Source: Halobellus litoreus (lineage in GTDB: Archaea; Halobacteriota; Halobacteria; Halobacteriales; Haloferacaceae). From it: a stretch of DNA of 64,000 nt. The notes beneath the pieces were generated by a model. The model had not been told where the DNA came from, searched no databases, and saw nothing but the letters and a program-made list of their open reading frames with translations. The DNA lies in contig NZ_JANHAW010000002.1 of the NCBI RefSeq assembly GCF_024464595.1, positions 868,001 through 932,000 of the forward strand. The letters run 5' to 3'. Below are positions 20,335-49,445 of the stretch, one piece after another (position 1 is the stretch's first letter; each line of letters opens with the position of its first letter). A program made the position numbers and the translations under genes.

Positions 20335-20407
20335 AGTCCCGTGGTGTAGTGGCCAATCATATGGGCCTTTGGAGCCCATGACGGCGGTTCGAATCCGCCC
20401 GGGACTA
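20335..20407 (+). tRNA. tRNA-Gln (anticodon UUG)
   Basis: The 73-base sequence folds as a tRNA. The acceptor arm AGTCCCG pairs with CGGGACT, followed by discriminator A at 20407. The anticodon stem TGGGC/GCCCA encloses the loop CTTTGGA, giving anticodon TTG. The T arm GGCGG-TTCGAAT-CCGCC is perfect. There is no intron and CCA is not encoded. Archaeal tRNA genes are frequent integration sites, and the DNA just downstream is gene-free and of unusual composition. Confidence 0.95.
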
Positions 20408-20848
20408 TTTCCTCGGATATGCGATTCTTGAGGTGTGCTCCCAGATCGGCTCGGCCCCTCTAACTCATTCAGAGAACTAGGCCGACTGCTTAGACCACTT
20501 CCGAGGCTACGGAACTCGGAATAACACGTCTGGATCCGATATAGAGGAGAGACGGGTTGCCAGCAACGAGGGACTACTCCACGCGAAGTCGATATAGCGC
20601 TTTGGGCTATCGAAGAGTCGTTTCGATGGCCTGCTCAGCAACGATTCGAACTTCCAAAGTGTACTGCCGGCCGGTGAGACTCAAAATTCATACAGACTCC
20701 CTAGCCTGGCGTAGTGTTCAGATAAGCAGTTGTTGGCCGATAATTGACATCCGGTAGGGCTGAGGCCCGCCGCTCCGCTTCTGCCTCGTCTGCACTGTAC
20801 TAGCCGATCAAGCGAGGACTCAAGTCACTCGACGAAGAGGTCGTAGAC
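20408..20848. other. Gene-free, atypical stretch next to tRNA-Gln
   Basis: These 441 bases contain stops in every frame and only a 66-codon ORF without halophilic composition. Base usage is visibly more AT-rich than the flanking genes, for example around 20640-20760. I found no second copy of the tRNA 3' end, no integrase and no inverted repeats. It looks like the decayed remains of something once inserted at the tRNA. Confidence 0.45.
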
Positions 20849-21580
20849 GTGACCATAGAGGACAACGTCGCCCTCGTCACGGGGGCTAGCGCTGGAATCG
20901 GTGAAGCGACGGTGCGCGCTCTCGCACGCGAGGGAGCGAATGTCGCCCTCGCAGCGCGGCGGCGAGAACGACTCGAAGAGATCGCCGACGAGCTCGAATC
21001 GTCGTTTGACGCCGAGACGCTCGTCGTCCCGACAGACGTTCGCGACGAGACGGCGGTTAAGTCGATGGTCGAGACGACGGTCGAGACGTTCGGCCGACTC
21101 GACATCCTCGTGAATAACGCGGGGCTCGGCGTCGGCGGCGACGTTGAAGAGACGACGAGCGAGGAGTACCGCCTGATGATGGAGACGAACGTCGACGGCG
21201 TCTTCTTCGCGACGCAGGCGGCGGTACCGCATTTACGAAAGACGAGTGGGAACCTCGTGTTCGTCGGGAGTTTCGCGGGGCAGTACCCCCGACCCACGAA
21301 TCCGATGTACGCGGCGACGAAGTGGTGGGTCCGCGGCTTCGCACACAGCGTCGAGGGGCAGATCGGTCCGGACGGCATCGGCGTCAGCGTCGTCAACCCC
21401 ACCGAGGTCCGGACCGAGTTCGGCAGCGAAGAGGGCGATTCGCTCGAAGAACGGTTCGAACCCGAAGAGGTTACCGAACCCGAAGAGATCGCGAACGCCA
21501 TAGTCTTCGCCGCGTCCCAAGATCGATCGACGGTCCACGAGATCGATCTGTACCGGCGCGATAAGTTCGAAGGGTGGTGA
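20849..21580 (+). CDS. Short-chain dehydrogenase/reductase
   Basis: The 243-residue protein is a classical SDR. It has the cofactor site VTGASAGIGEA (residues about 10-20), NNAG near residue 89, catalytic serine in FVGSFAGQY and the YAATKWW motif supplying tyrosine and lysine. An arginine-rich segment after strand 2 (ALAARRRERLEE) favours NADP(H). The substrate is unknown. The GTG at 20849 gives VTIEDNVALVTG; the frame stays open 45 bases upstream but without ATG. It stands isolated between the tRNA-side scar and the surface glycoprotein spacer, and so could be part of accessory DNA. Confidence 0.85.
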   Translation: MTIEDNVALVTGASAGIGEATVRALAREGANVALAARRRERLEEIADELESSFDAETLVVPTDVRDETAVKSMVETTVETFGRLDILVNNAGLGVGGDVEETTSEEYRLMMETNVDGVFFATQAAVPHLRKTSGNLVFVGSFAGQYPRPTNPMYAATKWWVRGFAHSVEGQIGPDGIGVSVVNPTEVRTEFGSEEGDSLEERFEPEEVTEPEEIANAIVFAASQDRSTVHEIDLYRRDKFEGW

Positions 21581-22119: not shown

Positions 22120-25100
22120 ATGACAGGAGATTCGAACCGCGTTCGTGCAGCAGTTCTCGTGACGATTCTGACTCTCGGCCTTCTCGGTGGGACAGGCGTG
22201 TTTTCCGCGTCCGTCGCCGCCGAACAGGGGAGCATTAGCTTCGGCGCGACGACGTACGCAGGCGGGGACACCGTCACTGTCGTCGTCGACGATGCGGATC
22301 TGTCGACGGCAGAGGATTATGTCGTCAACATCGAATCAGATACCGAATTGCAGGAAAGCATTCTTAGTGAGGATATCGCAGATGGAACTAGACAGGTTAC
22401 TACAAATCATTCGGTGGCCGATGTCAACGGAGACAATAAGATAACAAATTCAGATTTTGTATACAGTAATAATTTGGATGGCTCCGGAGGTATTTCAAGT
22501 ATATCAAGAAATAGTGATGGAACTGTCAATTTAGAACTAGCTTTTGACTCTGATGAAGATGATTCGATCGGATATACACGTGGAGAGACTGTTAATGTTT
22601 CATATAGCGTGGACAGTCGTTTTGAAGGTAGCTTTAAAATAAATGAATCAGACAGTAATGGAGTTCTACATATTACGAATGGAGATACAATTACTGGAAC
22701 GTACTCTGATGAAAGTGAGAACGAAGATCGAACAACAACTGCATCTATTGGTGATGAGACCACCGACGAAGACCCAGGGCCGCTCACGCTGGGTTCGGTA
22801 ACGCAGTTCACCACCGCCAACCTCGCGGGAACGGCGCTGACCCACTCCGAGAGCGTCGTCGAAATTCCCTTCAGTGAAGACGTCTCGAAGGCGAGCGGCG
22901 AATCGGGGGCGCTGACGCTCGCGGACAACCTCACCGTGACGGTCGACGGAGCCGACGTGACCGACCGATACACGCTCGACGCGAACGGGTCGACCGACGG
23001 GCAGGTCCTATTGAGTTCGGGGACACCGGTGGATCCGCGATCGAAGATGACCGTCGAGATCGACGCCGTGAACGACTCGATCGACACCGAGACGATCGAA
23101 CCGGGATCGGTGGACGTGACCGTCGCGGGCGCGGCCGTCGGCGAGGACGACGGGGAGGCGAGCGCCTACGCGGGAACGACACTGGCGTTGGTCACGGACG
23201 ACGGCTCCGTCGATACGAATCAGACGTTCGCGGTCGAAGACGGGAGCGGGACGGTCGTCTTCTCCGGGCAGACCGGAGCAGGCAGCCAAGTGTTCGCGTT
23301 CGACACGGCGGCGCGCGACTGGAGCGGGAACTACACGATCGAGACCGCGCTGGAAGACGGATCGGTCGACCGGAGACTCGACGTGGCGCTCCCCGAACTG
23401 GACCTGACTGCCGACGTCGCGGACCGAACCGTCACGACTGCCGACCCCATCGAGGGAACGGTCGACGCGGACGCCGCCGGTCGCGTCCTCGAAGTCGTCC
23501 TCCGTTCGGACGACGACGGCTCCGATGTCGTCGAGCGAACGGACGTGACGCTCGGCGACGACGGGACCGCGCGGTTCGAGTTCGCGGCCACGACGGTCGC
23601 GGATGCGGGACCCGGAAGCTACACGGTCGAGGTGGTCGACGCCGGATCCGGCGCGACGGTCGAGTCCGCTCGTATCCGCGTGGACGATGCGGAGGAGACG
23701 TCGTTGTCTCCGTCGCCGCCGGTAGTCGAGGACCCCGCCGAGGAGCTGAACGCGTCGTTCCGGTCTCCCGTCGTGGAGGAGCACGCCGGCGACGTCGCCG
23801 CCTTCGCCGTCGAATTGGACAACACCGAGACCGCGGCCGTGACCGTCGGCAGCGACGCGAACGGGTTCCGTGCGAACGCGACGGTCGTCGACGGCAACGG
23901 GGACGGCACCGTCGGAGTGCGGTTCAACACCGCCGCGGCGGCGGGGGCGGAGACGATCCCGACCGACGGCGGTGCGGTCTTCGGAGCGATCCGGGAGAAC
24001 GCGTCCGGCGACGAAGGCACCGACGCGATCCGCGGGGCCGAGTTCGCAGACGGTCACAACCTGGCGGAGTCGATCGAACCGGGGAACTACAGCCTCGCGG
24101 TCCGACCGGGAACGGACTCGAACGCGACCGTCACCGACACCGGGACGCTGGTCGTCCTCCCGGCCGCGCCGACGAACCTCACTACCTGGGTCGCGCCGGC
24201 CGGGTCGGCGTTTTCGACCCGCGACGTCGTTGCGGAGGCGATCGACCGGCACCGACTCACGAGGACCGCCGAGGTCGCGGTCGGCGACGTCGTCGTCCAT
24301 CGGGTGGTCGTCCCCGGCCTCGCCGGCGAGTTCGCTCGCCGGCCCGGAACGCCGACCGAAGCGTTCTTCGCGCTCTCGGGAGCGGGCGACGACTCGCTGT
24401 ACGCGTTCGACGTCGCTCGCGTCGAGACGAGCGAGGGCAACCTCACCGGGCGAACGGCATCGTCGAGTGACGACGGGGGCCGGTACGTGCCGGACGAGGG
24501 CAACGCGAGCGTGGTCGCCGATCCGGCAAACGACACCTACGTCATCGCCTACGAGAGCACCGAGGCGGTCGGTCTCCGGGCCGGCGAGTCGCGCGCCGCC
24601 GCGTTCACGGTGGCCGCCGGCTGGCCCTACAACGGACAGAGTGTCGAGAACCGGACGCTCACCGGGGAGTACGAACTCCTCGACGCCGGGGTGTCGACCG
24701 TCGACGACCCGATCGTCGTCGAGAACGCGACGAACCAGTCCATCGGGGGAACGACGAACGTCGCCCCCGGGACCGAGTTCGAACTCCGGATTCGCTCGGC
24801 GAACGGGACCGACCGGCAGTTGCTGAAGACCAAGCGGGCCGTCGTGGGCCCGAGCGGAGCGTGGAACGTGAGCGTCGACTTCGACACGCAGCGACGGGGC
24901 GATCGGTTCACCTTGACCTCCGCGGTCGACGTGATCGCACCCGGAGACGAACTCCTCGTCGACGGCGTGGTCGGGGCCGTCGTGCCGAACGCGTCCGTGG
25001 TCACCTCGACGAACCGAATGGTAGGTGGCGGCGGTGGCCAGGGCGGAGGCAACGGCGGGAGCGGAGGCGGTGCGGCGGCCGCAGCGGACAGCGCGAGCGC

Positions 25101-25314
25101 GACGCCGACGGCGCAACCCGCGACGCCGAGCGGAGAGGCCGATTCCGGGGGGTCCGTACTCGATTCGACGCGGCGGTTCCTCGGTGGCGTGCTTGGAACC
25201 TTCGTCGACGACGCGGGCGAGGAGACGCTGCGAAGTCGGCTGTTTGGCTTCGACGTCCTCGTCTCGGCGGGCGCGTTGACGACGGTGGCGCTGTTCGTCT
25301 CCCGTCGACAGTGA
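22120..25314 (+). CDS. Large secreted cell-surface glycoprotein with AT-rich internal cassette
   Basis: The 1064-residue protein is exported and probably N-glycosylated. The ATG at 22120 gives a Sec signal peptide (hydrophobic core VLVTILTLGLLGG) likely cut after A34 (SVAA|EQGS). The mature chain is rich in beta-type Thr/Val/Asp repeats and Asn-X-Ser/Thr sequons. An EF-hand/dockerin-like calcium loop DVNGDNKITNSD lies at 101-112. The segment near residues 865-960 (GGTTNVAPGTEFELRIRS) resembles haloarchaeal BGTF/DUF7827 surface domains. A Gly-rich linker (residues about 968-985) and a Ser/Thr/Pro stretch precede a final hydrophobic helix ending SRRQ, which should anchor it; the usual PGF tripeptide is missing. 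Codons for residues about 67-213 are far more AT-rich than the rest, implying mosaic origin. Confidence 0.8.
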   Translation: MTGDSNRVRAAVLVTILTLGLLGGTGVFSASVAAEQGSISFGATTYAGGDTVTVVVDDADLSTAEDYVVNIESDTELQESILSEDIADGTRQVTTNHSVADVNGDNKITNSDFVYSNNLDGSGGISSISRNSDGTVNLELAFDSDEDDSIGYTRGETVNVSYSVDSRFEGSFKINESDSNGVLHITNGDTITGTYSDESENEDRTTTASIGDETTDEDPGPLTLGSVTQFTTANLAGTALTHSESVVEIPFSEDVSKASGESGALTLADNLTVTVDGADVTDRYTLDANGSTDGQVLLSSGTPVDPRSKMTVEIDAVNDSIDTETIEPGSVDVTVAGAAVGEDDGEASAYAGTTLALVTDDGSVDTNQTFAVEDGSGTVVFSGQTGAGSQVFAFDTAARDWSGNYTIETALEDGSVDRRLDVALPELDLTADVADRTVTTADPIEGTVDADAAGRVLEVVLRSDDDGSDVVERTDVTLGDDGTARFEFAATTVADAGPGSYTVEVVDAGSGATVESARIRVDDAEETSLSPSPPVVEDPAEELNASFRSPVVEEHAGDVAAFAVELDNTETAAVTVGSDANGFRANATVVDGNGDGTVGVRFNTAAAAGAETIPTDGGAVFGAIRENASGDEGTDAIRGAEFADGHNLAESIEPGNYSLAVRPGTDSNATVTDTGTLVVLPAAPTNLTTWVAPAGSAFSTRDVVAEAIDRHRLTRTAEVAVGDVVVHRVVVPGLAGEFARRPGTPTEAFFALSGAGDDSLYAFDVARVETSEGNLTGRTASSSDDGGRYVPDEGNASVVADPANDTYVIAYESTEAVGLRAGESRAAAFTVAAGWPYNGQSVENRTLTGEYELLDAGVSTVDDPIVVENATNQSIGGTTNVAPGTEFELRIRSANGTDRQLLKTKRAVVGPSGAWNVSVDFDTQRRGDRFTLTSAVDVIAPGDELLVDGVVGAVVPNASVVTSTNRMVGGGGGQGGGNGGSGGGAAAAADSASATPTAQPATPSGEADSGGSVLDSTRRFLGGVLGTFVDDAGEETLRSRLFGFDVLVSAGALTTVALFVSRRQ
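22320..22760 (+). other. AT-rich cassette inside the surface glycoprotein gene
   Basis: In one hand-counted 120-base piece (22441-22560) only 38 bases are G or C, about a third, while flanking coding DNA is visibly about two-thirds G+C. The reading frame is unbroken across both edges, and codons such as AGA, ATA and TTA appear only here. The encoded part (residues about 67-213) includes the EF-hand-like loop. Confidence 0.75.
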
Positions 25315-48614: not shown

Positions 48615-48911
48615 CGGTCAACCCTTCGGCGGCACGCGTGTAAAACTCCCCGTTCCGTCGGGGGAGCGAGTCGGGACCCGCTCGGACGGAACGAGAGCCG
48701 ATCCCGAGCCCCCGCGCCGCCGGCGGAGGGAACGCTGATTTTATTAGTTAGGTACATAACCGCCGCTCCGATCGAACAGAAAGAAAAGAACGAATTCATT
48801 ATCCCGCTTTTATTCCATTTTACTAAAGAAATTTGGATAGTAAGTATTGTACAAAGAATATAATGGCTTTATAACCAAACATTTATCAAAAATAGTGTTC
48901 TACCTGTGGGT
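48615..48911. other. AT-rich divergent promoter region
   Basis: The spacer between coaBC and the HTH regulator is strongly AT-rich from 48737 to 48900, with several T/A tracts. For the plus strand a TATA box ATTTATCAA is at 48881-48889, 27 bases before the ATG at 48912. No ORF is present. Confidence 0.5.
48881..48889 (+). promoter_or_regulatory. TATA box of the HTH regulator gene
   Basis: ATTTATCAA is centred 27 bases before the ATG at 48912, an ideal leaderless promoter. Confidence 0.6.
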
Positions 48912-49445
48912 ATGTCGACGCCACAGCTGAGTTCGAGTCAAAAGCGCATCCTCACCTCGCTCGTCAATCTGGCCGACGGAGAAGCCCGTGCGGTACGGGG
49001 GAAAGAGATCGCCGAGGAGATCGACCGGAACCCCGGGACGATTCGCAACCAGATGCAGAGCCTACGCGCACTGCAGTTAGTCGAGGGCATCCCCGGTCCG
49101 AAGGGAGGGTACAAACCCACCGCGACGGCCTACAAGACGCTCGATATAGAGGAGATGGACGAACCCGCGCAGGTCCCAGTCGAAAACAACGGCGGACGCG
49201 TCGACGGGGTCAACGTAGAGGAGATCGATCTCGCCACCGTTCACAACCCGGACCGCTGCCGGGCGGAAGTCACGCTTCGCGGGTCGGTGCGGCACTTCTC
49301 GGAGAGCGACCGCGTGACGGTCGGCCCGACGCCCTCCACCGGGCTCCGTCTGTCGGGCACCGTCGACGCGGTAGACGCAGACGAGAACACGCTGATCCTC
49401 CGGATCGGAACGATGAATACGGCACCGGAGCGGTCCGCGGGCTGA
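48912..49445 (+). CDS. HTH-type transcriptional regulator (Rrf2/TrmB-like N-terminus)
   Basis: The 177-residue protein has a winged helix-turn-helix at about residues 8-68 (SSQKRILTSLVNLADGE; NPGTIRNQMQSLRALQLVEG). A linker follows, then a C-terminal beta-rich domain (residues about 95-170, VTLRGSVRHFSESDRVTVGP) of unknown type. No cysteine cluster for Fe-S binding is seen. The role is unknown; an internal ligand or metal sensor is possible. Its AT-rich upstream region could hold its own binding sites. Confidence 0.8.
   Translation: MSTPQLSSSQKRILTSLVNLADGEARAVRGKEIAEEIDRNPGTIRNQMQSLRALQLVEGIPGPKGGYKPTATAYKTLDIEEMDEPAQVPVENNGGRVDGVNVEEIDLATVHNPDRCRAEVTLRGSVRHFSESDRVTVGPTPSTGLRLSGTVDAVDADENTLILRIGTMNTAPERSAG

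Follow-up and report, generated by a model that had tools for sequence, protein, structure and literature searches.

That haloarchaeal surface genes recombine and turn over is already known. Deep allele classes that are older than the species carrying them, located in an exposed recognition domain, are known from the dimorphism of Plasmodium merozoite surface proteins and from the trans-species polymorphism of the MHC, both in eukaryotic sexual populations. In the genomic island GI1 of Haloquadratum walsbyi, a 48% GC genome, surface genes are exchanged by recombination and virus evasion has been proposed, whole genes and islands being turned over (PMC3119063, PMC4535781). For Haloferax, the portion of the S-layer study drawn on here describes S-layer proteins that diverge between relatives and have undergone some recombination within the gene, in a mostly vertical history of two whole-protein types, and that portion mentions neither a trans-species cassette dimorphism nor a maintained low-GC segment (PMC5867893). 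VARTIG of the Thermococcales is, according to the part of the report used here, a large archaeal protein in which one domain, a C-terminal Ig domain, has become hypervariable by recombination between relatives and which is followed by polymorphic-toxin-like downstream genes; a role in self/non-self recognition or conflict was proposed, the authors saw no counterpart in other archaea, and that part states no composition anomaly (PMC8416519).

The gene described here comes from the haploid archaeon Halobellus litoreus and lies in a window of 64 kb, the whole stretch of DNA that was analysed. Unlike in H. walsbyi, the locus keeps its synteny and is stable, exchange is confined to about 440 bp within one gene, and the contrast in composition is far stronger. 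Unlike in the Plasmodium and MHC cases, the exchanged segment has a base composition of its own. It differs from the VARTIG module in that the variable part is N-terminal and the gene directly downstream encodes a conserved HD-domain protein, in a neighbourhood that is largely conserved in Halobellus.

The gene (22120..25314, plus strand, as are all parts of it given below) encodes an S-layer-like cell surface glycoprotein of 1064 amino acids, recognized by its open reading frame (likely start ATG at 22120, end at 25314), Pfam and NCBIfam domains, orthologs and synteny; it is a single-copy gene with a conserved chromosomal place in Halobellus. A predicted signal peptide (residues 1-34, 22120..22221), with basic N-end, hydrophobic stretch and SASVAA, is of a type conserved in the orthologs and is followed by a conserved N-terminal edge (residues 35-76, 22222..22347) ending in YVVNIESDTELQ, which was delimited by breakpoints and by its tracking of the species. 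Further downstream a DUF7827 domain (PF25162; residues 540-663, 23737..24108) passes the Pfam gathering score with 72.5 bits against 27, and a BGTF surface domain (NF045517; residues 862-936, 24703..24927) passes the NCBIfam cut-off with 62 bits against 40. A putative C-terminal hydrophobic anchor (residues 1038-1064, 25231..25311) was read from the sequence; the pattern LxGFDVLVSxxALTTVxLFxxRR is conserved in the orthologs. The C-terminus (LFGFDVLVSAGALTTVALFVSRRQ) has no PGF motif, there was no PGF-CTERM match among the NCBIfam results, and most close orthologs have LLGFD at this place. By the model NF041335 for ArtA-dependent haloarchaeal S-layer glycoproteins the protein is a relative of this family and not a member, because its score of 205.6 bits (E 1e-60, residues 153-962) is far below the curated cut-off of 1100.

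Several other features of the window and the genome were recorded. ARAGORN calls a tRNA-Cys at 24599-24689 (plus strand) within the coding sequence of the surface glycoprotein, which is probably a false positive. A tRNA-Gln gene (20335-20407) is followed by about 400 bp of lower GC (~0.52; 20420-20800) without an obvious gene, and, of the other Halobellus neighbourhoods that were compared, that of the surface gene in genome G005 alone contained a match to the SDR gene at 20849-21580. The archaeal type IV pilin-like gene at 34912-35427 (minus strand) coincides with a regional GC dip and has a normal fourfold-site GC (0.82); the GC of the window is second lowest at 48701-49000 (0.47). Another S-layer-like cluster of the same genome is found at G000:C2:1287481-1298272.

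The original prediction had counted 38 G+C at 22441-22560, which was exactly reproduced, and had placed a low-GC stretch in the open frame of a surface glycoprotein gene, which is also correct: the GC of 22320-22760 is 0.379, the minimum among all windows of 441 bp (mean over the 64 kb 0.679, sd 0.043, minimum 0.381 at 22321), the next lowest non-overlapping one having a GC of 0.50. The edges are sharp, GC3 dropping from about 0.7 to 0.3 at residues 67-75 and recovering at residues 211-240. The low-GC cassette was assigned to residues 71-216 (22330..22767; GC 0.38) and has a fourfold-site GC of only 0.19 (residues 77-212). It does not begin exactly at the mature N-terminus, as had been supposed, some 36-40 conserved, GC-richer residues intervening between the predicted signal peptide and the cassette. 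No repeats and no promoter or terminator patterns were found at its edges.

From diagnostic columns and identities the cassette can be divided into a dimorphic core (residues 77-149, 22348..22566), which in this genome is of class A, a hypervariable tail (residues 150-211, 22567..22752), delimited by comparing identities between sister and between unrelated species, and an insertion specific for class A (residues 212-215, 22753..22764) that is absent in class B. The core contains one putative calcium loop of the EF-hand/dockerin type, DVNGDNKITNSDF (residues 101-113, 22420..22458), the only such loop present; it is suggested by the alignment, in which both allele classes have a related form, and by matches that remain below cut-off (Dockerin_1 with 15.2 bits against 22.9, E 0.025; EF-hand likewise). 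The AlphaFold model of the N-domain has a mean pLDDT of 56 and matched no PDB fold at E <= 0.001, and a sequence search of solved structures yielded nothing significant.

Full-length orthologs with 49-66% identity are present in 12 genomes of the genus, the window's own included, Halobellus rufus and H. captivus being two of the closest named relatives. In all 12 the segment is bounded by the same edges, YVVNIESDTE and DPxPLTLGPxTEF, and has a GC of 0.36-0.47 and a GC3 of 0.24-0.48 (flank GC3 0.78-0.91). A recent foreign low-GC insertion was rejected because all 12 orthologs hold the same low-GC segment and because substitutions in it still tend to low GC (see below). No copy of the cassette was found in IMG/VR (cassette-only profiles included), among PLSDB plasmids or among INPHARED phages, and there is no donor copy within the genomes, the domain being single-copy in each of the 12. 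Of the domain replacement envisaged in the original prediction, the in-frame exchange between the same edges at the exposed end has thus stood the comparison, cassette and flank trees conflicting decisively, and the low-GC donor, mobile element or virus has not.

A further 153 genomes of the family gave no match to the N-terminal domain. Five Haloquadratum-like low-GC genomes (rpoB GC3 0.39-0.52) carry this domain. The homolog in G014 (1225 aa, start at 261086) has an N-domain, a TP-rich linker and an S-layer-like part, as in Halobellus, and lies directly upstream of an 822-aa ORF, which is the reported size of the S-layer protein Csg Hqrw_1237. Matched by position, it would be a gene of the surface island GI1 of H. 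walsbyi C23, reported at 260966-269209 (PMC3119063). Some low-GC relatives have several copies of the domain near the surface gene: at G016:C1:2653839-2663919 and G015:C1:382683-384114 at least two lie beside it, with differing central parts between similar edges, and could be a cassette store.

With one genome per Halobellus species (n = 12), the cassettes fall into two classes, A in the window, L006, L007, L010, L011 and L014, and B in L004, L005, L008, L009, L012 and L013. The gene tree is not homogeneous over the whole protein. In the cassette tree A and B are split with 100/100 support; in the flank tree they are interleaved with 5 changes, and the rpoB tree, which requires at least 4, agrees with the flanks in its sister groups. 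The AU test rejected a clade of class A for the flanks (p 2.6e-72) and, for the cassette, four clades of the flank tree (p <= 1.8e-4). All 27 columns diagnostic for A or B are in the cassette, 23 of them at residues 79-149 and the others at residues 212-215, and none elsewhere in the protein; other 6/6 splits have at most 5 diagnostic columns inside the cassette. The dimorphic core is 0.58-0.62 identical within a class and 0.36 between classes. Outside the cassette, sister species that differ in allele class are 0.72-0.79 identical, the value for residues 36-70 being 0.79; at residues 150-211 they are 0.44 identical, unrelated species 0.43-0.46. The left breakpoints fall at residues 76-79 in three independent sister contrasts, the right ones vary from 167 to 210. 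That the cassette has been exchanged as a mosaic across species is, judged from these alignments and trees, very probable.

Within a class the cassette follows the flanks, the ratio of cassette to flank distance being 1.02 in A (Mantel r 0.64, p 0.03) and 1.03 in B (Mantel r 0.78, p 0.002); between A and B the cassette distance is about 1.16 regardless of the flank distance (r 0.11). Because the within-class distances match those of the flanks and the synonymous divergence of same-allele pairs is at least as high in the cassette as in the flanks, we take the dimorphism to be older than the sampled species and consider no swap with a sampled donor to be recent. With one genome per species, the clustering of the alleles and the age of the split have the pattern of a trans-species polymorphism.

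The low GC is a property of the cassette throughout the genus, its fourfold-site GC being 0.19-0.36 in 11 of the 12 species and 0.52 in L009, that of the flanks 0.79-0.92. Third-position changes were polarised in the sister pair L004/L005 (both class B), and gave an equilibrium GC3 of 0.19-0.29 for the cassette and of 0.63-0.77 for the flanks, the ranges reflecting the choice of the outgroup; the difference is significant (Fisher p 0.002 and 0.0007, outgroup L008). Bootstrap values were 0.12-0.49 for the cassette and 0.47-0.82 for the flanks, and in 74 flank windows of equal length the equilibrium GC3 was always at least 0.60. From mutation accumulation in Halobacterium salinarum, a GC of about 20% is expected at mutational equilibrium (PMC9997560), a value to which the fourfold sites of the cassette come close; the fixation bias B estimated from it is about 0 for the cassette, compared with 2.7-3.4 for the flanks. 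Because the recent substitutions in L004/L005 tend to low GC3, the composition is probably maintained in place and not ameliorating, a test based mainly on this single sister pair, with about 25 changes polarised in the cassette. Fast evolution alone was rejected as the cause, since the gene has other variable windows in which the species signal is retained and which remain GC-rich (GC4 0.82), and a protein constraint forcing low GC was rejected by the fourfold sites and by a homologous domain in another family (G290), which is GC-rich (0.84-0.89).

Low GC was also seen elsewhere. In the S-layer paralogs L023 (G002) and L024 (G006) the N-terminal 200-400 codons have a GC3 of mostly 0.53-0.7 (up to 0.8) and the codons further downstream of 0.8-0.95; other S-layer-like genes may thus hold milder versions of the effect and its cause may be broader than the cassette. 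The Halobellus HsdS genes L096, L098, L099 and L102 have, partly or throughout, a fourfold-site GC of about 0.1-0.5; their target-recognition domains, considered as an independent comparison of heterology with GC, are few cases, of low GC in several, and the genes may be imports.

We propose that the cassette is an exchangeable element with two balanced classes that misses the recombination-linked GC drive, an explanation that as a whole we hold to be slightly better than an even bet. Strains or species that undergo homologous recombination with one another in the conserved flanks would swap the cassette in frame, which is possible because the edges track the species tree while the cassette tracks the allele class; the mosaic pattern is observed, the route through the flanks is what we infer from it. 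The dimorphism would be a variation of a surface antigen that balancing selection maintains, most likely versus viruses or other surface-recognising agents. Viruses are proposed because in haloarchaea they bind to S-layer proteins or have their fusion triggered by them (PMC9973310, PMC8875312); as read from the sequence, the cassette is near the N-terminus of a protein with a predicted C-terminal anchor. Frequency-dependent selection by viruses would account most economically for the persistence of two classes, and that viruses select for them has in our estimate an even chance.

The GC-raising force would be weak or absent over the ~440 bp of the cassette, because the synonymous sites are near mutational equilibrium and still evolving there. 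A and B alleles may be too different to pair, and the unpaired segment would then miss a GC drive linked to recombination, be it biased gene conversion or selection that recombination renders effective; selection that loses its efficacy because recombination is low would yield the same pattern. We put this recombination-linked cause forward with somewhat less than even confidence. Against it counts an experiment with Haloferax volcanii in which the direction of gene conversion did not depend on GC (PMC8223754). The GC4 of 0.52 in L009, by which the cassette is not uniform in GC, counts against the explanation, and the GC3 of 0.53-0.6 in N-terminal parts of some S-layer paralogs counts against a cause specific for the cassette.

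The two cassette types could also be the result of plain old swaps between species, without balancing selection, and now be fixed per species; this would take no more than four to five changes along the species tree, and recombination between species occurs in haloarchaea, as stated in the portion of the Haloferax study drawn on here (PMC5867893). Within a class, however, the cassette is in lockstep with the species, and the same-allele synonymous divergence, not lower than in the flanks, speaks against a recent swap with a sampled donor; we regard this reading as rather doubtful. A recurrent import from a low-GC gene pool (Haloquadratum-like relatives, unseen viruses or plasmids) would explain why low-GC sister lineages share the domain, often in several copies beside the surface gene, why it is absent from the other family genomes searched, and why the H. 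walsbyi homolog is in GI1, a site of recombination and virus action (PMC4535781, PMC3119063). The Halobellus and Haloquadratum cassettes, however, are only 35-38% identical over the domain and form separate branches, and the fourfold-site GC of 0.19-0.24 in L001 and L004-L006 is below that of the Haloquadratum cassettes (0.36) and of their rpoB (0.39-0.50). Because of this higher fourfold-site GC and the distant sequence, the Haloquadratum-like cassettes appear to be poor candidates as current donors. As within-class distances follow the Halobellus species and the viral, phage and plasmid collections hold no copy, such an import is unlikely.

Selection for AT-rich, rare codons, e.g. for slowed translation during secretion or folding or for an open mRNA, is more improbable still. 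Codons that are rare in neighbouring genes make up 48% of the cassette and 5% of the flank, a pattern conserved across the 12 species, but the composition fits a neutral equilibrium without an extra push to AT, the segment begins about 200 bp into the gene, unlike the placement expected of a secretion signal, and it stops where the heterology between the alleles stops; moreover, the GC-rich G290 homolog indicates that the domain does not need AT-rich codons. An assembly chimera or hidden paralogy has a negligible probability and was refuted by 12 independent genomes with the same structure, one copy each and the same synteny; there is no A/B signal in the flanks, and nothing was found in its favour.

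What appears to be new is a two-class dimorphism within a gene, extending across species and tied exactly to a segment near pure mutational equilibrium. In our preferred reading, the exchangeable balanced cassette, this segment would be a short island beyond the recombination-linked GC drive, and thus a natural knock-out of the GC-raising force, which we offer as a tentative possibility. With a GC4 of 0.8-0.9 on both sides of the cassette in the same transcript, it is an internal control for the long-standing question of what keeps the GC of prokaryotic genomes higher than mutation alone would make it: effects of codon selection, stability or ultraviolet light should be alike in cassette and flanks, those of a recombination-linked drive need not. 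If true, the natural knock-out would link the GC-raising force with recombination rather than with codon choice, DNA stability or ultraviolet resistance. The cassette is a candidate for a recognition domain that virus-host tests in Halobellus could address, and it may help to explain why haloarchaea are GC-rich.
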